Shown piece after piece: positions 2,056 to 17,565 of a DNA stretch of 28,581 bases; the first letter of the stretch is position 1, and each line of letters begins with the position of its first letter. Origin of the DNA: a virus. Position numbers and translations under genes: made by a program. The DNA lies in the IMG/VR virus record IMGVR_UViG_3300032163_000078, positions 1-28,581 of that record. One strand, written 5' to 3'. The notes below the pieces were generated by a model. It made no database searches and had not been told where the DNA came from. It was given only the letters and a program-made list of their open reading frames with translations.

Positions 2056-2253
2056 TTAGTTTTTTCGCGCTGAAAAGTGCGCGGTTATTTGTTTTTTATC
2101 AATACAAACCTTTTGCATTGTATGGCGAAAATGGTAGAGCTCTGCTTCTAAGGCAGCGCGCCTTTTCTTACTCTCGGCAAACTCGGCAAGCCGACCGATC
2201 ATATAGCCTACGAGATAGGCTAAGTATATTATCGCTACTAAATACCAGCTCAT
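2056..2253 (-). CDS. Small membrane-anchored protein (65 aa)
   Basis: 65 residues with an N-terminal hydrophobic helix (about residues 3-20, SWYLVAIIYLAYLVGYMIG) followed by a charged, probably helical cytoplasmic part. The start overlaps the preceding stop as ATGA, which places it firmly in the early leftward operon. No recognised family. Small anchored proteins of this kind are common in phage early regions and their roles differ, so no function is assigned. Confidence 0.7.
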   Translation of the reverse strand: MSWYLVAIIYLAYLVGYMIGRLAEFAESKKRRAALEAELYHFRHTMQKVCIDKKQITAHFSARKN

Positions 2254-2654
2254 CGTTTCACACTCCTTGCGCGTTTGCGCTTAAGTCCCGCTTCATTCAC
2301 CGGAAACATCTCAGGGAAGATGAGGCGCTGCTTTAAAACAAAACCCTCAGGGAACATACAAACACGAAAAAAATTCTCCTCCTCCTCCTCCTCTTCCCAC
2401 TCCTCCTCCTCCTCCTCTTCCCTCTCCTCCTCCTCCTCCTCTTCCCTCTCCTCCTCCTTAAGGCTGAACGATCTCTCGCCCTCAAGTATCGAGTAGAGCT
2501 TCTTAGGCGAGATAAAAATTAAACTCGATATCGTATAGATCGCCTTGAACTGCGGAAACGATTTCGAATAATTTTCAATCGCTTTTTTATAGATGTCCTG
2601 TCGTGTCATAATTTGCAGAACCTCTTGTGTTGAAAGTTGAGGAACAAATTTCAT
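2250..2654 (-). CDS. Early protein with HTH-like N-terminus and Glu-rich repeat
   Basis: 134 residues. The ATG at 2654 follows GGGAGAAG, which decides the start over an internal Met at residue 16. Residues about 45-67 (SPKKLYSILEGERSFSLKEE) look like the end of a Cro/XRE helix-turn-helix, but this is weak. The middle is a run of glutamates broken by Arg or Trp every eight residues, encoded by a 24-bp tandem repeat. The C-terminus is basic. An acidic tract next to a possible DNA-binding region could mimic DNA or engage basic partners, but that is speculation. It lies directly after the Cro-like gene. Confidence 0.75.
   Translation of the reverse strand: MKFVPQLSTQEVLQIMTRQDIYKKAIENYSKSFPQFKAIYTISSLIFISPKKLYSILEGERSFSLKEEEREEEEEEEREEEEEEEWEEEEEEENFFRVCMFPEGFVLKQRLIFPEMFPVNEAGLKRKRARSVKR
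2377..2459. repeat. 24-bp minisatellite coding for Glu tracts
   Basis: About 3.4 copies of a 24-bp pyrimidine-rich unit (TCCTCC repeated, ending CTTCCCTC or CTTCCCAC), at 2377-2400, 2401-2424, 2425-2448 and a partial copy after that. The unit length is a multiple of three, so changes in copy number would keep the reading frame of the 134-residue protein and only alter the length of its (R/W)EEEEEEE tract. Confidence 0.9.
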
Positions 2655-2689
2655 TGACTTCTCCCGGCGAACTGGTTAAATTGTTATAG

Positions 2690-2881
2690 TTAATTTTCAT
2701 AAGCTTGAACGAACTCGGCGACTCTCGCGAGCGCGGCTTTTCTTTTTCCGCTGAGCGCCAGCGATACGGCGGCAAGGCTGTAGCCCAAATGCTCGGCTAC
2801 AAGCTTCATCCTCAAGCCCTTGCGTATCATCATCACGTGCACTTCTACAGGGTTAACTTTTTTACGTTTTGTGTTTTCCAT
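2690..2881 (-). CDS. Cro-like helix-turn-helix protein
   Basis: 63 residues, first gene of the leftward early operon and divergent from the CI-like repressor at 3004. A helix-turn-helix can be read at about residues 26-47: LVAEHLGYSLAAVSLALSGK, with the recognition helix AAVSLALSG. The small size and the position opposite the repressor fit a Cro-type regulator that shuts off the repressor promoter and tunes early transcription. A good sigma-70-type promoter lies about 35 bases upstream. No other domain is present. Confidence 0.75.
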   Translation of the reverse strand: MENTKRKKVNPVEVHVMMIRKGLRMKLVAEHLGYSLAAVSLALSGKRKAALARVAEFVQAYEN

Positions 2882-2916
2882 AGCTTTCTTTTATATTGTG
2901 AATATGTTTACGTTGG

Positions 2917-2945
2917 AATATAATACGATTATTCGTAATTGTCAA
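2917..2945 (-). promoter_or_regulatory. Leftward early promoter with internal operator
   Basis: On the minus strand TTGACA (2945-2940) and TATATT (2922-2917) are separated by 17 bases, a near-consensus sigma-70 promoter. The spacer holds a perfect inverted repeat, TACGA-TTAT-TCGTA, at 2924-2937. A repressor bound there would block RNA polymerase. Transcription would begin about 25-30 bases before the Cro-like start codon and read the early operon. The rightward repressor gene starts at 3004, so the same operator probably also affects its expression. Confidence 0.8.
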
Positions 2946-3003
2946 GTAATTTATATACCAAAGTGAAAATTGTTGAATTTCTCTACACTTCTTAAAAATA
3001 AGA

Positions 3004-3402
3004 ATGGCGATTTCAGAGCGTTTAAAGCAGTTGATAGGAAATAGGAAGCAAAAAGATTTTGCTGACGAGATGGGGGTTACTCCTACGAGGATTAACCAAT
3101 ACCTGAACGAACGGCAAGAACCCGCATCGGATTTTCTAAGAAAACTTGCTTCGAAGGGAGTAAATATAAATTGGTTTTTAACAGGGGAGGGTGTAGCTTA
3201 CGAAAAACAAAGCGGTAGCGCTGAGCTCCCGGTTGAAGTTCAAAGCTTGATAAATGAGATAATGAAAACTCCCGACCTCGCTGTTACTATCGCGAGAGAG
3301 TTACGAGCGATTCTTATAAATCTTGCGCAAGCGGAACACGCGCGTAAAATGATGAAGCTCTCGAATGATGAAATAAAAAAAGTACTTAAATCTAAAAAAT
3401 AA
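3004..3402 (+). CDS. CI-like phage repressor (XRE family, no protease domain)
   Basis: 132 residues. An XRE helix-turn-helix occupies about residues 5-55 (KDFADEMGVTPTRINQYLNE, then NINWFLTGEG, which is typical of phage repressors whose HTH ends with a 'WLLTGEG'-like motif). The C-terminal half is helical and lacks the LexA/S24 autocleavage domain (no Ser-Lys dyad region), so it is probably an oligomerising tail, and induction would not go through RecA cleavage of this protein. It is transcribed away from the Cro-like gene across the shared control region. No clear Shine-Dalgarno site precedes the ATG. Confidence 0.85.
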   Translation: MAISERLKQLIGNRKQKDFADEMGVTPTRINQYLNERQEPASDFLRKLASKGVNINWFLTGEGVAYEKQSGSAELPVEVQSLINEIMKTPDLAVTIARELRAILINLAQAEHARKMMKLSNDEIKKVLKSKK

Positions 3403-3916: not shown

Positions 3917-4153
3917 GTGAGGATCCGCGCGGATTACGTCCGTCATAAATTTAAGAAGTACGCGCGAGCTGCAGGGCTCTCCGATAAACTTCATTTTCAT
4001 TCCTTGCGTCATACCTTCGCTACCTGGCTCGTGCAAAATGGCTCGACGCTCTACGAGGTACAAAAATTACTCGGTCATTCGAGCGGCGAGGTTACAAAAA
4101 TATACTCTCACCTCGCGGCAAGCGAACTGCATTATGTTGTTAATAGGATTTAG
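3917..4153 (+). pseudogene. Tyrosine integrase, C-terminal remnant
   Basis: 78 codons from GTG at 3917. It is the end of a tyrosine recombinase catalytic domain: HSLRHT (His28, Arg31), LLGH (His54) and the nucleophile Tyr63 in KIYSHL. Phage integrases are usually about 300-400 residues, so the N-terminal arm-binding and core-binding domains and the first catalytic Arg are missing. The frame stays open upstream to a TAA at 3857, inside the tRNA anticodon loop, and family-like sequence seems to begin around 3896, right after the tRNA core. No upstream frame supplies the missing part and no second integrase is seen. The GTG has no ribosome site. Most likely a non-functional deletion remnant. Confidence 0.85.
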
Positions 4154-9164: not shown

Positions 9165-10381
9165 ATCTCATACCCAATCGCATTTATTTTTACTTTATCC
9201 TGGTTAGGATAGATTTCAGCTGAACGGATAAAGTGAGTAGTCCCGGAATCCGCCGATAATTTTCTATATGGTATTATCAACTCCGGGATAGTCGTATAGT
9301 TATCAATTAAGGAAAGCTCTACCTCAATCTCCGAAGTACCGAGGATCTCGACATTATACCACTTCCTTAAAATCTCTGACGCCGGCTCAATAACAATTCC
9401 CCAGGGAGGGTTCCCCTCATACCTCATAAGATAGCAGCCCGTAGCTCCATCATATATCACCGCGCTAATGGATCGTAAAAGAGTAGAGCGTAAAAACGGA
9501 AAGCTAAAAATTGACTCGACGGTTTTTTCAGTAAAGAGGTTCGAATTGCGCTTTATAGTAGCCTCGATATCCTCAGCCCAAAGGTTCGGGTGTTTATACT
9601 CGACATTTTTGTAATTAAATTTTACTATATCGCTCCCGACTCGTACGCCGGTTACGGTATGAGTACCTCTAATTTTTTTCAATGTGATACTTGCGGCCGG
9701 CTTACGAGCTTCGAAGATCCATATTTTAGGTACGAAGTATGCGTCCTTATTTTGCTCGATCCACCATACCGCATTATAGATTTTTACCAACTCGACGATC
9801 ATATCATAGCAAGTAATGTCCGAGAAAAATGGCTGGGCTGTAGCTACGCCTCCGAGGAGATATTCATAGCTTCGATTCATTCCGGGGTAGAGTTTAAAAT
9901 TATATCCGAAGTAGAAAAAAATCTGAGAGAGAAGACTGTCCGGTGTAAACAAAGTCCGGTTCGTTATTTGCCCAGGTAATCCTCCGATTGACTCGCAGTA
10001 CATTTCTACCGAAATCCCATAAAGAGGTATATCCTTTATCTTAATAAGTTTAGCCCGCTCGATAAAATCTTTTTCGGAGGCTATAGCTTCGAGCTCTACG
10101 CTTTCATTATCGACGTCATTTTTTATTCCGTCTCCTGAAACTACTCCGCTAAATACCTGGCTTCCCTCAAGTAATATCTTGACGCCTGGCCTTGCATAGC
10201 TCGCGAGCATAGTATTAAAATCTCCGTACATATTTGAGAGCTTGATCCTGGCCGATGAGATTGAGGCGTTACCTTCCTCGTCCTCCATTGCGAAAGTTAA
10301 ATTATTCAAGCCATCGCGGAATAGTCGGCGCTGAGCGTCGGCGTTGTAGTCTACGTTATTTATTACTACGCCCTTCCTCAT
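9161..10381 (-). CDS. Tail tip / baseplate hub-like protein
   Basis: 406 residues. The N-terminal region (INNVDYNADAQRRLFRDGLN, then VFSGVVSGD and VELEAIASEKDFIERAKLIK) follows the pattern of phage tail proteins of the gp27/late-control-D/Tal type, in which beta domains report 'displaced' coordinates followed by a long mixed domain. It comes immediately after the tape measure, with ATGA overlap, where the hub or tail-associated protein is normally encoded. The assignment rests mostly on order and length. No peptidase or glycosidase motif is visible. Confidence 0.65.
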   Translation of the reverse strand: MRKGVVINNVDYNADAQRRLFRDGLNNLTFAMEDEEGNASISSARIKLSNMYGDFNTMLASYARPGVKILLEGSQVFSGVVSGDGIKNDVDNESVELEAIASEKDFIERAKLIKIKDIPLYGISVEMYCESIGGLPGQITNRTLFTPDSLLSQIFFYFGYNFKLYPGMNRSYEYLLGGVATAQPFFSDITCYDMIVELVKIYNAVWWIEQNKDAYFVPKIWIFEARKPAASITLKKIRGTHTVTGVRVGSDIVKFNYKNVEYKHPNLWAEDIEATIKRNSNLFTEKTVESIFSFPFLRSTLLRSISAVIYDGATGCYLMRYEGNPPWGIVIEPASEILRKWYNVEILGTSEIEVELSLIDNYTTIPELIIPYRKLSADSGTTHFIRSAEIYPNQDKVKINAIGYEI

Positions 10382-13011
10382 TTTATTACCGACTTTCTAA
10401 AGCGCTCAGCTTTAGGATATTCTACCCGAACAAACTTTTGCCCCTCAAGTGTACCGGCAAGAACGGGCGACCATTCTTTTTTCCTCATAATATTTTTCAG
10501 TTCTTTTACTTCGCGAAGTAGTTCACTATTACCGTCTCCGCCTCCAAGCCTCGCTCTGGTTTCATTTATTATTCCTGGCACTATATCTTGATACATTACC
10601 TGGCTAAATGTTCGCTTCGGCATAATGTATTCCATTTGCCCGCCTTCGATAAATCCACGCTGGTCTTTTTCGAATACTCCACCTTTTTCGAAAGCGGTAG
10701 CAAGCGCTGCGCCTTTGACGGTAGCAAGTGCCGTTAGGACGGCGGCTGCACCGATAGCGGCTGCGCCTCCAAATGTTGCAATAGATACCAGGGCGGCAGC
10801 TGAGGACGCTGCTGCGGTTATTTCAGCCATAGCAGCCGTTACTACTCCGGCGATTGTAAGAGTCGCCGCGGTTGCTGTTATTATCTGTTCCGTCGCCGTT
10901 ACCTTTGTAATGACTGCGCTTGCGGCCGCGGTAGTTTTCTGAGTGAGCAGCTGAGTAACCGCGGACTCAATCACTTTCTCTAAAATATTTCCGATAGCGT
11001 TCCAGGCCGCCTGCTTCATCGAGTCCCAAATAGCTTGCCACTTTTGAGCGCCGGATTTCGACGAGTCGATAATCGATCCCCAGGCTGTTTTAAAGCCGGC
11101 AGTTAGAGAGGCATATAGTACACTCGTTTCTTTAATCCTGCGAACATCGATATCGTGTAACTCCCTTGACTTCGCGCGCTCAATAGCGGTAATTAAATCA
11201 GCGTTACCTTTCGCAGCTTCGAGCTCACGGCTATATTTTAATTTAACCTCAGCGGTTTCGCGCTCGTAATCATCCTTAATGCTTGAGAGCTGCAGTTCGC
11301 GGATTCTGTCGCGAGCGTCGTTAAGGCTTTTATCGATATTAACCTTCGACTCAGTTTCGTTTTTCCTTAGATCGATTTCAGCCTTAAGTAGTTCTTCTTC
11401 TTGAGCCATAGTCCGCACGCCGTAGCTTTTCAGGTCTGCAATACGCTGCTCAAGCTGAGCCCTGGCAATCGCGCTGCGTTTTATTTCATCGCTTTCGCCT
11501 GCGAGCACGTACTCATTATCAAGTTCGCGCTTGCGTCCGACAAACTGAGAGTAATCGTCAAACAGCTTTTGATTCTTCTCTCTTTGCTCTGTTATTACTT
11601 TGGATTTTTCTTGTCTCTCATATTTATTAATTTCGGCTAAAAGTTGCAGATTCCCCATTGCCTTTATTCGCATTTCAGATGCTTCGTTTTCAATAGACTT
11701 TAATTTTTGTTCGGTTTCGTCTGAAATATTTTTTATCCGTAACTCGTGCAGGAACTTCTCTTGTTCCGCGGTTAATTTTGTTTGTTGTTCTTCCGTCTTC
11801 GCTTTTCTATCCGATAACAGTTTGTCGATTGCTTTGACGCGTACCCCAAGCGCTGTAAGTTTTTTCTGTTTTTCTTCTATCTCAATATTTAAATTTAATA
11901 CGTCCGATAGAACTGATTTTTTTTCGGATTCAATAAGTTCGTTCCGTTTCGATATTAAGCCGTCGATCTCTTTACTCAGTTCGTCAATTTCTTGCGACGT
12001 TTCACCCCACTTGATTAAAAGAATGCCCTCGCTCAACTTTGTATAGGCCCGCGCGGCTTTATCTACGTTATTAGCGAGCTGATCCATTGGATTAATAATA
12101 CTATCAAGCCATATACCCAACGCGGCGCCTGCCGTTACGATCGCTCCGATGATGTAGGGAAGCCCGCCCATAGACGTACCGAGTACGAGGAAGGCGCTTG
12201 AGAGCGCTACGACTCCGAGAGCCATAGCTTGTATAGCTGGCGGGGAGTCAGTAATAACTCTTACGAGATTAGAGAGTAGCTCGAGTACTGGAGCGAGCGC
12301 GGATTTTATCAGATCACCGAAGCGCTCTTGTAAGTCATTCCAAGCTTCTGAAAACTTTTTAATCGAACCGGCTCCGGTAGACCCCATAGCGAGGGCTTGA
12401 CCGCCTACTGCTTTAGTAAGCTGCTCAATAATTGAAACGCTGCCGCGAGCCTTGATATCCGCTTCATCTAATCCCTTGATATAACGACCGAGCATACCGA
12501 TATTACCTGAGAAAGCGTCCGCCATTAATCGAGCGGCTGAGGTAGTATCGGTGCCCATTACGACAGATAGATCTTGTGCGAGGGCAGTAGCTTTTTTCAG
12601 CTGCTCACCATGTAAGCCCATAGCCGTGAGCTGTGCCATTGTTTGTACTGTAGCGTCATCACTAAGACCGGTAGCTCGTTGAAGCTCCGCTGCATAGCCC
12701 TGCAAATCGGCGAGCGTAGCTTGTGTATAGGTGCCTTGTTGCTTGAGTGCCTGGGCGAGTGAAGCTGTAGCCTTTTCCGATTCATTCGACGCTTCGACGA
12801 ACGCGCCCAGTGTACCTTTAACGATCTGAAATACTGAGTAGAGCCCTCCGATCCTTACGGCTACATTCGCGAAGGCTCCGCTCATAGCGTTTATCGGTTC
12901 TTTAGTTTTATCGATATCGCCCTGGAGTTGCTTAACGGACTTACCTACTGAGCGTATAGAAGTTACGGCTCCGCTCTCATCGAGGGTAAGCTTTAGAGTA
13001 ATATCACTCAG
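10378..13011 (-). CDS. Tape measure protein
   Basis: Sets tail length and is ejected on infection. The usual ATG would be at 12885, but the same frame stays coding-like for another 42 codons (LSDITLKLTLDESGAVTSIR, VGKSVKQLQGD and on), so I start it at CTG 13011, six bases after GAGG and overlapping the previous stop. At 877 residues, the common rule of about 0.15 nm per residue would give a tail near 130 nm. It has phage tail tape-measure features: a hydrophobic segment after about residue 260, a long coiled coil (Glu/Lys/Arg-rich, about residues 330-650), an Ala/Thr/Ile-rich membrane-like region near residues 690-780 and a C-terminus ending KAERFRKSVIK. Confidence 0.92.
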   Translation of the reverse strand: MSDITLKLTLDESGAVTSIRSVGKSVKQLQGDIDKTKEPINAMSGAFANVAVRIGGLYSVFQIVKGTLGAFVEASNESEKATASLAQALKQQGTYTQATLADLQGYAAELQRATGLSDDATVQTMAQLTAMGLHGEQLKKATALAQDLSVVMGTDTTSAARLMADAFSGNIGMLGRYIKGLDEADIKARGSVSIIEQLTKAVGGQALAMGSTGAGSIKKFSEAWNDLQERFGDLIKSALAPVLELLSNLVRVITDSPPAIQAMALGVVALSSAFLVLGTSMGGLPYIIGAIVTAGAALGIWLDSIINPMDQLANNVDKAARAYTKLSEGILLIKWGETSQEIDELSKEIDGLISKRNELIESEKKSVLSDVLNLNIEIEEKQKKLTALGVRVKAIDKLLSDRKAKTEEQQTKLTAEQEKFLHELRIKNISDETEQKLKSIENEASEMRIKAMGNLQLLAEINKYERQEKSKVITEQREKNQKLFDDYSQFVGRKRELDNEYVLAGESDEIKRSAIARAQLEQRIADLKSYGVRTMAQEEELLKAEIDLRKNETESKVNIDKSLNDARDRIRELQLSSIKDDYERETAEVKLKYSRELEAAKGNADLITAIERAKSRELHDIDVRRIKETSVLYASLTAGFKTAWGSIIDSSKSGAQKWQAIWDSMKQAAWNAIGNILEKVIESAVTQLLTQKTTAAASAVITKVTATEQIITATAATLTIAGVVTAAMAEITAAASSAAALVSIATFGGAAAIGAAAVLTALATVKGAALATAFEKGGVFEKDQRGFIEGGQMEYIMPKRTFSQVMYQDIVPGIINETRARLGGGDGNSELLREVKELKNIMRKKEWSPVLAGTLEGQKFVRVEYPKAERFRKSVIK

Positions 13012-13576
13012 CTGCTACCTCGATCGTAACAGGTAATCTCTCGATGTTACCGTCATCGTCAGTAACTTTCACGAGAACTTCATAGGTGCCGGGAGTAACG
13101 ACTGAGCCGGTAACCGACCAGGCGCCACTCTCTTGATCTTGCTCAACTACTAAGCCCTCCGGTACTGTAGATCCTTCCGCGGCTTCGAGCGCTACTGCAT
13201 AACTCGGTACTCCGCCGGTGATCGGTACGGCTAACTCGATCGGAGCCTCCGGTGCGACGTTTACCTCGTCGACTGCTTCCGGGAATTCGATAGACTTTAC
13301 CTTGCCGTTAGTTAACGGAAGACCGGTATACTGAGCAGTATAAGAGATCTGTACAGGAGGGTAATCCGCTTCGACTGCAGCGCGAGCAAGCTCGAAGGCT
13401 TCGGCTTCTGTTTCAGCCTTAGCTTTCTGTACAATACTTTCTACGACTTCACCATTTTGAATTATATCGAAGGGGAAGGAAAAATAAAAAGGCCCCGGGA
13501 TTACTTCCGGTATTACGATATCTTCCTCAGTTATAGGCTTCGGTAAGCCTGGAAATCCTAAGTGTCCGCGCCCCAT
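13004..13576 (-). CDS. Ig-like virion protein between tail chaperone and tape measure
   Basis: 190 residues. Residues about 30-90 form a small alpha/beta module (FSFPFDIIQNGEVVESIV, then AEAFELARAAVEADYPPVQI). Residues about 105-188 look like a putative Ig/cadherin-like domain: APIELAVPITGGVPSYAVAL, VPEGLVVEQ, GTYEVLVKVTDDDGN and a final strand. Such domains decorate phage virions and can bind carbohydrate. The first module resembles two other small virion-operon proteins here (14605-14808 and 17224-17565). It lies where siphophages usually have no gene, so it may be an accessory of the tail tube. Confidence 0.7.
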   Translation of the reverse strand: MGRGHLGFPGLPKPITEEDIVIPEVIPGPFYFSFPFDIIQNGEVVESIVQKAKAETEAEAFELARAAVEADYPPVQISYTAQYTGLPLTNGKVKSIEFPEAVDEVNVAPEAPIELAVPITGGVPSYAVALEAAEGSTVPEGLVVEQDQESGAWSVTGSVVTPGTYEVLVKVTDDDGNIERLPVTIEVAAE

Positions 13577-13605
13577 AATTTTTAAAGCTCCTTTCTTATT
13601 TTGGT

Positions 13606-14114
13606 TTACTCCTCAGCTTTAGCCAGGGAGTCGTATCGTATAAGGGCGACTAAAACTACATCGCTCCATAACGCGTTATCAAATAGGTAAAGGAACTCGC
13701 GCGCGCTTTCGCCGGCCGCGTAATAAGTTAGCTTTTCTATGCTTGCCTCAGTACTACCGGAACCCTCGGGGCTGCGCTGATTAAATCTCCCCGGATATTC
13801 GAGCGATTGCTTTACGTCTATTTGAATTGAGAAAAAAAATCCGTAATCACTTCGAGGATAGATCTGCTATCTACGTCGAGCCATTCGATATCGTCAGGGC
13901 AGCTTATTAGGCAAACTTCCATAAGTTTTTTAATCTTATCAGCGTCGGTCTGGATCTTAAAAAGTTTCATACCAAGCTCGGTTTGTTTTTCCCGGGTAGC
14001 GATATCGGAGAGCTCGATTTCTGTAGCTCCTAAAAACGCCGACAGCTTTCGCGGAGTCGGCGTTGCCAGGGTGAGCTCGTGATTACCGAAATTATATTTT
14101 TTAGCATCGCTCAT
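13606..14114 (-). CDS. Tail assembly chaperone, -1 frameshift product (169 aa)
   Basis: The 98-residue frame (13818-14114) ends shortly after eight T residues (plus-strand A run 13832-13839). In that run the zero-frame codons are GAT TTT TTT TCT. A -1 slip on T TTT TTT gives FFS and opens a frame with no stop until TAA at 13608-13606, adding 75 residues after F94 (SLEYPGRFN, YYAAGESAREFLYLFDNALW). There is no ATG start for this extension. The position, immediately before the tape measure region and after the tail tube, is where lambda gpG/gpGT and most siphophage chaperone pairs use a programmed -1 frameshift. Confidence 0.85.
13818..14114 (-). CDS. Tail assembly chaperone, short form
   Basis: 98 residues, product of normal termination at TAG 13820-13818. 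The protein begins MSDAKKYNFGNHELTLATPT and continues with a charged helical body, typical of gpG-like tail assembly chaperones that hold the tape measure during tube assembly. TAATG overlap with the tail tube stop. The ratio of this form to the frameshifted form usually matters for assembly in other siphophages. Recognition here is by order, length and the slippery run, not by a conserved motif. Confidence 0.75.
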   Translation of the reverse strand: MSDAKKYNFGNHELTLATPTPRKLSAFLGATEIELSDIATREKQTELGMKLFKIQTDADKIKKLMEVCLISCPDDIEWLDVDSRSILEVITDFFSQFK

Positions 14115-14584
14115 TACTTAGACCAGCTAACGGTCGCTTCGGTGTAGACGTCGGAGGGCTTCTTACCCATAGCTTGACCGCTGATAGCGGTAATGATAGC
14201 GTCCTTAGCGCTGAAGGCGCCGCTGAGTCCTACCGATACGTTCATACCGAGTAGCTTTATACAGGCTGTATCGGAGGCGATGATCGGGCGCAAAATTATA
14301 TCGCACTTTTTATTCAGCATCCCTTCGAGTATGGTGAGCTTCGCGCTATCGGTTTCAAGCCCCTCGGCTTCAAACTTGAGCGTAACTCCGAGCAGCTGCA
14401 TCTCGCCGTCGTGTAAAGCGATTTCGTGCTTGTCGGTTGAAAGCTTTATGCTGTCAGCCTTGAGCGTACCTACGTCGCTCCAATCGGTGCCTGCGGTGTG
14501 TGCTACCGGTGTAGAGGCGTCCGTTCGTCCTGCTACGTAAACGTGGCAAGCTTTAGCGAAAATTTTAGTTTTGTCTATAGCCAT
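14114..14584 (-). CDS. Major tail (tube) protein
   Basis: 156 residues. The sequence has the layout of phage tail tube proteins: a short N-terminal lead, VGTLKADSIKLSTDKHEIAL, LGVTLKFEAEGLETDSAKLT, and a compact beta-rich core. It lies directly before the tail assembly chaperone and after the capsid/lysis genes. Hexameric rings of this protein would form the tube around the tape measure. No sheath protein is encoded next to it, which supports a non-contractile tail. Confidence 0.8.
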   Translation of the reverse strand: MAIDKTKIFAKACHVYVAGRTDASTPVAHTAGTDWSDVGTLKADSIKLSTDKHEIALHDGEMQLLGVTLKFEAEGLETDSAKLTILEGMLNKKCDIILRPIIASDTACIKLLGMNVSVGLSGAFSAKDAIITAISGQAMGKKPSDVYTEATVSWSK

Positions 14585-14604: not shown

Positions 14605-14808
14605 TTAGTTACCGCTAATAAATTTCCAGGTAGAATTTTTCCCCTGGAGTTCCGCGTTAAGCGCGGCCGTTGCTTTTTCAGCCGCGGCGTTTATTGTACC
14701 GCCTTCGGCTTCGATTGTTTTATTTTCTTTAAACTTACCGCCCTCGGTGATCTCGAAAATAAATGTAAACTTTGTTAAGGGCGCTGGTTTTGTTTTTTCG
14801 TCTGCCAT
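14605..14808 (-). CDS. Small virion-operon protein (67 aa)
   Basis: 67 residues: FTFIFEITEGGKFKENKTIE, then AEGGTINAAAEKATAALNAE and a final WKFISGN. The pattern (aromatic beta strand, Gly turn, Val/Ile strand, Ala-rich helix after a Thr, final strand) is shared with residues about 30-90 of the protein at 13004-13576 and the C-terminal half of that at 17224-17565. Function unknown. It lies between the spanin-like and tube genes and may be a tail- or head-decoration component. Confidence 0.65.
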   Translation of the reverse strand: MADEKTKPAPLTKFTFIFEITEGGKFKENKTIEAEGGTINAAAEKATAALNAELQGKNSTWKFISGN

Positions 14809-14810
14809 AG

Positions 14811-15317
14811 TTACCTCATTAGTAAAAAAGTTAAGGCACCTCCTATGATAACGCCGGCAGCGAGTACGACTTTAGGCTTAAGATAAAAAGGCTGCTCGAT
14901 TTCATAAGGGATTGGTACCCGGATTGTATCTACTCTCGATACTCTTACGGTATCGACGCGGGAAACTTCCCGCGGTTGTAAATTAAAAATATAATTTAAT
15001 ACTACGCTATCCGTAGGCGGATATGTTTCTACCTGAATCTGAACAGACTCGCCCTCGCCGAAACTTATGGCCCGGTTGTAAAATTGATTTTTAATTCGCG
15101 GATCAGAAACGTGAGGCTTAAGCACCGCGGCGCCGATCACCTTTTTAGCCGGTAGGTACACGGTGTCAGGCGATCCCTCGACGGTATCAGCTTGAACGGC
15201 TCCGGTAAAAACAGATGGATCCGCAGGCGCCGGCTTATCGTAAATCGCTTTCGTAACGGAAAATGTAAGCACCGCTGTCAGCAGTATCGAGGCTAATATG
15301 TCAAGGCGTATTTTCAT
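14811..15317 (-). CDS. Spanin-like protein with two membrane segments
   Basis: 168 residues with an N-terminal hydrophobic helix (about 5-26, LDILASILLTAVLTFSVTKA) and a C-terminal one (about 148-166, VVLAAGVIIGGALTFLLM). The middle is periplasmic in character, with DTVYLP, and the repeats SRVDTVRV and SRVDTIRV. Start overlaps the endolysin stop (ATGA). In Gram-negative phages the gene after the endolysin often links the inner and outer membranes. A protein anchored at both ends fits a spanin of unusual form. No lipobox is seen, so it is not a classic u-spanin. Confidence 0.6.
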   Translation of the reverse strand: MKIRLDILASILLTAVLTFSVTKAIYDKPAPADPSVFTGAVQADTVEGSPDTVYLPAKKVIGAAVLKPHVSDPRIKNQFYNRAISFGEGESVQIQVETYPPTDSVVLNYIFNLQPREVSRVDTVRVSRVDTIRVPIPYEIEQPFYLKPKVVLAAGVIIGGALTFLLMR

Positions 15318-17223: not shown

Positions 17224-17565
17224 TTATTGTGTCTCCTTTATTATTTTTCGGAAGCTGCCAGTATATGCGGCGACGAAACCTTCCGCCGCATATTTAGTTT
17301 GTAAGGTACTTACTGCAACTTCCAGCGCTGCTTCTTCGGTAAGCCCCTCACTTTTTTCTTTTACTACTTGTGTATCCTTTCCCTGAGCTTCGAGCCTAAA
17401 CTCGAATTCGTAGAGTTGTTTATTTTCAAAATTTTTCTTATCAGCCTCAGCTGCAGCTTTTTTTTCAGCTGCGAGTTTTTCGGCTTCGGCTTTTTTCACC
17501 GCTGCTTTCTCGGCTTTATCTGCGGCCTTCTTCTCAACTGCCGCTTTTTTATCTTCTTCGTTCAT
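17224..17565 (-). CDS. Lys/Ala-rich head accessory protein (113 aa)
   Basis: 113 residues. Residues 1-45 are a Lys/Ala/Glu helix (KKAAVEKKAADKAEKAAVKK and on). Residues 48-113 form the small alpha/beta module seen in two other virion genes (LYEFEFRLEAQGKDTQVVKE, LTEEAALEVAVSTLQTKYAA). Two bases before the capsid gene on the same strand. A capsid-associated or decoration role is suggested by place. The basic helix could contact DNA. Not a recognised family. Confidence 0.7.
   Translation of the reverse strand: MNEEDKKAAVEKKAADKAEKAAVKKAEAEKLAAEKKAAAEADKKNFENKQLYEFEFRLEAQGKDTQVVKEKSEGLTEEAALEVAVSTLQTKYAAEGFVAAYTGSFRKIIKETQ

Follow-up and report, generated by a model that had tools for sequence, protein, structure and literature searches.

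A predicted tail assembly chaperone gene that very probably encodes two proteins through a -1 ribosomal frameshift

The closest described system is that of phage lambda, in which the tail assembly chaperones gpG and gpGT are produced from one locus by a frameshift (Levin 1993 and Xu 2004, as cited in PMC5009743), the two products being made in a ratio of 30:1 (PMC5009743). The Atkins review describes this chaperone frameshift as widely conserved among long-tailed phages (PMC5009743); the phage set of the PRFect paper includes 2397 chaperones annotated as joined (PMC10885494). The stretch of DNA analysed here, referred to as the window, spans an entire virus record (28581 bases), and contains a gene that, judged on its sequence, is in all probability a tail assembly chaperone of the lambda gpG/gpGT type with a -1 ribosomal shift. 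Expression of this tail-assembly gene very probably yields two proteins. Most ribosomes would read its 98 codons to the TAG, giving a short product. In a minority, the P-site and A-site tRNAs-Phe on T TTT TTT would slip back by one base, and the slipped ribosomes would read 75 more codons, generating a predicted fusion of 169 amino acids (94 + 75), as the anatomy of the locus and comparison with its relatives suggest. If lambda is a guide, the short form may coat the tape-measure protein, and the C-terminal part of the fusion may recruit the major tail protein.

The candidate zero-frame gene is a minus-strand ORF with the 3' end ACG GAT TTT TTT TCT CAA TTC AAA TAG (Table 1). The initial annotation had noted eight T residues in the correct frame for a shift, 25 bases before the zero-frame stop. 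The run is indeed present, with its heptamer, read from 13839 to 13833, in the X XXY YYZ register of the ORF; the distance from heptamer to the TAG at 13818-13820 is 12 bases (4 codons) rather than 25. The -1 frame is open from 13833 to 13609, reading TTC TCA ATT ... GAG before the TAA at 13606-13608, and the 75-codon extension is, as originally described, free of stops and of any ATG, GTG or TTG. Were there no shift, the 241 nt of 13577-13817 would stay empty in a tightly packed strand, in line with the earlier remark that the locus would otherwise hold an unexplained gap.

Table 1. Features of the tail module in the window, and putative +1 sites in the sister group of phages.
Feature	Position	Strand	Basis
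Tail assembly chaperone (predicted), zero-frame product (gpG-like), 98 aa	13818..14114	-	ORF; homologue L166; relatives' profile; predicted fold (weak)
Candidate slippery heptamer T TTT TTT	13833..13839	-	part of T8 run 13832-13839 (A8 on + strand)
-1 frame extension (gpT-like, predicted), 75 codons + TAA	13606..13833	-	open frame; no start codon; gene-like codon usage
Probable major tail protein	14114..14584	-	position; weak match to L190 4705-4881, E 0.001
Ig-domain protein	13004..13576	-	Pfam He_PIG at its cut-off
Tape-measure gene	10378..13011	-	PHROG tape measure E 1e-11; 34% identity to L192 tape measure
Putative +1 sites TTT CGY	L198:6531, L199:7003, L201:11601		
Putative +1 sites on reverse complements	L194 3446, L197 6990, L203 11419		

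The extension also resembles a gene in its choice of codons. When scored with codon usage trained on 38 other window ORFs, positions 13609-13817 carried 0.29 bits/codon in the -1 frame, the two remaining frames of that strand reaching 0.029 and -0.063. In-frame scoring windows averaged 0.243 bits/codon (n=171), and none of the 342 out-of-frame ones reached 0.29, with only 4/342 being free of stops. One frame of the opposite strand scored 0.269 but contains 4 stops. A structure model of the extension was unreliable (pLDDT 44).

As a measure of how often such an arrangement occurs elsewhere, an in-frame T TTT TTN within the last 31 codons was found in 3/116 other ORFs of the eight compared loci, and the same motif combined with a -1 extension of at least 60 codons in one of these 116. 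This single case is the window's own 14811-15317, whose TTTTTTA, close to the 3' end, was considered as a slippery site and rejected, since the next gene there has its own ATG.

A direct search with the chaperone found no relative in IMG/VR (viral_contigs) or in annotated phages. Used as single queries, the major tail protein, portal, tape measure and distal tail protein likewise returned nothing from viral_contigs, and the major tail protein nothing from annotated phages either. Relatives were instead reached via the terminase, a portal alignment and a portal search of 296 genomes, of which 13 matched, and were ranked by the identity of their major capsid protein to that of the window. The highest-ranking virus records were G335 (64%), G329 (64%), G333 (56%), G331 (55%) and G334 (50%), and the prophage loci L166 and L170 had 47% each. 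Six close relatives could be tested for the arrangement (L166, L170, L189, L190, L191 and L192). A seventh, G334, was left out of the count because its record ends before the tail genes, and L168, a further example, stands outside it because it was found by the slippery-site scan itself.

In all six testable close relatives, the ORF preceding the tape measure contains an in-frame T TTT TTN close to its 3' end and is followed by a -1 extension. The sites are GAT TTT TTT TTA in L189 and L192, TCT TTT TTT TTA in L191 and CTT TTT TTA in L190, with GAT TTT TTC and GAT TTT TTT TTG in the prophage loci L166 and L170 respectively. The extensions comprise 103 codons in L189, 78 in L190, 100 in both L191 and L192, 103 in L166 and 90 in L170, and all end beside the tape-measure start. 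Hence the comparison with homologous phages proposed in the initial annotation found heptamer and extension retained in each case, and the close-relative group contains no homologue in which the slippery run is absent and the extension is a separately started gene. The tape measure of L192 is 34% identical to that of the window over residues 2-318 (E 7e-40), which ties the L192 tail module to the window's. Between residues 4 and 96, the L166 chaperone and the window's are 31% identical (E 1e-6), and their DFF residues align. A profile of seven relatives, L168 included, matched the window chaperone with E 4.5e-9 in a one-sequence comparison, the alignment ending at DFF. Between the window's extension and those of the relatives, no similarity was detectable (E 0.13); a loose F-YLF...V...I pattern common to the window, L170 and L190 extensions was seen by eye and given no weight.

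It is very unlikely that the extension is a separate small gene translated from a non-standard start, such as an ATT or ATA near the TAG. Unusual starts may occur in this phage, whose tape measure seems to begin at CTG, and in two more distant terminase relatives, L003 and L005, the tape measure comes just after an ORF with its own start (1868-2242 and 2607-3005 (-); 124 and 132 aa respectively), a candidate counterpart of the extension at most. No T-run shift was seen at the locus in either, and the window's tail proteins had no match in the terminase relatives L002-L006, although head genes are common to them. Against an independent start, the window's extension lacks ATG, GTG and TTG throughout, and the first such codon in the six close relatives' extensions comes only at codon 30-60; a separate gene would also leave the conserved heptamer unexplained.

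The preferred reading, a ribosomal shift, is favoured by the way in which this heptamer is conserved. The residue preceding the Phe pair varies (D, A, S or L), yet its codon always ends in T; the product of the probabilities of T at this third base is 0.0028 over eight sequences, a value that ignores their relatedness. The run is of 8 T in the window, 9 in L189, L191, L192 and L170, 7 in L190 and 6 in L166. A constant in-frame heptamer within a run varying from 6 to 9 T favours ribosomal slippage over either polymerase slippage or an assembly error, and the constant X XXY YYZ fits, as expected, a tandem slip of two tRNAs, unlike an effect of homopolymer length alone.

Transcriptional slippage, with RNA polymerase adding a U (or dropping two) at the T8 and thereby changing the frame in the mRNA, is accordingly improbable, given that only 6 T in L166 and 7 in L190 accompany the same in-frame heptamer. 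It keeps some weight because bacteria do show slippage at stretches of 9 A or T (Atkins review, PMC5009743), and the window's T8 and the T9 of four relatives approach or reach this length. It would also accord with the lack of a stimulatory RNA structure: folding of the 90 and 75 nt after the window's run identified no downstream stimulator (z +1.4 and +1.0, with pseudoknots outside the scope of the test), and folding after the run in the relatives was mixed (z -2.1 to +1.8). Therefore, a ribosomal shift would have to depend on the heptamer by itself or on a pseudoknot outside the folding model. Ribosomal and transcriptional slippage could also act together.

That a single ordinary gene merely appears broken, through an assembly error or a real homopolymer indel, is highly improbable, because an assembly error would have had to strike matching codons in six more contigs. 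Homopolymers are error-prone, and the window virus is represented by a single record; however, the same break lies at the same place in six relatives of differing protein sequence, and 8 of the 12 window runs of at least 8 A/T sit inside intact long ORFs. Hence the proposal of a -1 programmed shift in the chaperone is supported by the six relatives, by codon usage and by a place upstream of the tape measure, with slippage of the ribosome as its probable mechanism.

Similar motifs were encountered beyond the close relatives. A T TTT TTN with a -1 extension is present at the distant loci L013, L020, L050, L096 and L142, which lie outside the counts and are candidate homologues at most, and a motif scan of L160-L165, L167 and L169 listed no candidate. 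In Flavobacterium phage FPSV-S1 (MK764442; L140:5719-5910), the ORF preceding the tape measure carries an AAAAAAG one codon before its stop, and a 61-codon -1 extension, absent from the annotation, runs up to the tape-measure start.

Position and frameshift weigh more than fold in identifying the gene as a chaperone. The protein had no match in Pfam and none of significance in PHROGs (best E 0.092), profile collections that need not cover all chaperones. An AlphaFold2 model of the N-domain (pLDDT 75.7) consists of a beta hairpin followed by helices. The first-ranked PDB chain for this model was the HK97 tail assembly chaperone (2ob9), with a weak E of 0.83, and its VIA Z of 3.1 was tied with those of unrelated clamp-loader chains. 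Among viral models (BFVD), the best match was a tail assembly chaperone from an uncultured phage (E 0.0043, probability 1.00), and the same label was carried by 10 of the best 50 matches. Chaperones therefore came first in both libraries, with no match at E <= 0.001, and the modelled fold leans towards the chaperone assignment without proving it.

The minus-strand gene order runs from a tube protein candidate, through the 98-codon ORF, the 241-nt gap, the Ig-domain protein and the tape measure, to genes at the distal-tail place. The chaperone ORF is thus between the major tail protein, assigned by position and with no family match in Pfam or PHROG profiles, and a PHROG-recognised tape-measure gene two genes downstream. 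The initial annotation had regarded this as the location at which siphophages use gpG/gpGT-type shifts, which holds in that the gene is upstream of the tape measure, and must be qualified in that one extra gene, encoding the Ig-domain protein, intervenes between the extension and the tape measure; ORF maps showed no such gene there in the six close relatives. The tape measure most likely starts at CTG 13009-13011, where no ATG, GTG or TTG is available. When compared with ATG- or TTG-started relatives, its N-terminus LSDITLKLTLD corresponds to MNDITLKISID of L189.

Other features of the window were recorded alongside the tail module. A small domain is apparently common to 14605-14808 (-) and the N-terminal part of the Ig-domain protein (E 7e-4), and perhaps recurs in the C-terminal part of 17224-17565 (-), with E 0.011 to the Ig-domain protein and 0.47 to 14605-14808. 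A short ORF at 3917-4153 (+) resembles by eye the C-terminus of a tyrosine recombinase (HTFATWLVQNG...LLGHSS) and looks like a remnant, and the ORF at 2250-2654 (-) has a long acidic, Glu-rich stretch of low complexity.

Among more distant relatives (portal 32-36% and capsid 21-30% identical), a sister group of six records (L194, L197, L198, L199, L201 and L203) shows a different pattern. The ORF before their tape measures, which are of 1306-1774 codons, ends in ...FFR, IFR or YFR, with a TTT CGT or TTT CGC 6 to 8 codons before its stop, and a +1-frame continuation of 93-104 codons ends beside the tape measure. This continuation was the best-scoring of the three frames in 6/6 records. In the alignment, the F and R of the site do not vary, unlike the residues that follow; CGY is a minority choice of arginine codon in L197-L199 (0.17-0.27). 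The distance from the opening of the +1 frame down to the site is only 17-26 nt in L194, L197, L198 and L199; in L201 and L203, which have possible TTG starts, it is 110 and 167 nt. Possible starts also exist in L198 (ATG) and L194 (GTG), so the continuation might be a separately started overlapping gene. The two records tested, L198 and L201, had no relative in annotated phages, and comparison of the two domains between the +1 and -1 groups revealed no homology (E 0.097 and 0.044; probability about 1%). On balance, we lean slightly towards the view that, within a set of phages with related terminases and portals, recoding at the chaperone runs in opposite directions, by -1 at T TTT TTN (...DFF) in the window's group and by +1 at TTT CGY (...FFR) in the sister group. 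If true, a +1 signal at which tRNA-Phe moves from UUU to UUC ahead of CGY would be a conserved type of tail-chaperone frameshift, and one could ask which tail modules shift forward and which backward among phages sharing packaging and portal genes.

In a limited literature search, no title or abstract opening dealt with a chaperone frameshift or forward shift in this phage group. The mechanism itself is ordinary and of a well-known kind; the new element is the member, from a chaperone family that Pfam does not match and for which PHROGs gave no significant hit. Hence a probable two-product gene missed by both profile libraries can now be correctly annotated, and a T TTT TTN towards the 3' end of the ORF preceding the tape measure provides a sequence rule for finding chaperones in a poorly described group of phages. 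Of the annotated phages, Rhodobacter phage RcRhea (KR935216) is the best tape-measure match by E-value (E 2e-8), and like the window has a two-frame chaperone, annotated as joined, just before the tape measure. However, its slippery candidate, GGGAAAC, is unlike the window's, whose chaperone matches no annotated phage. The HK97 chaperone is the top-ranked solved fold for the N-domain, at scores too weak for a proven shared fold. The lambda slippery site is of the G-A type, in contrast to the T TTT TTT of the window, and the window differs further in having no detectable sequence relationship to gpG/gpGT, and in its Ig-domain gene before the tape measure. Nevertheless, it shares with lambda the short chaperone, the -1 shift near the 3' end predicted here, the T-like extension and the position upstream of the tape measure.
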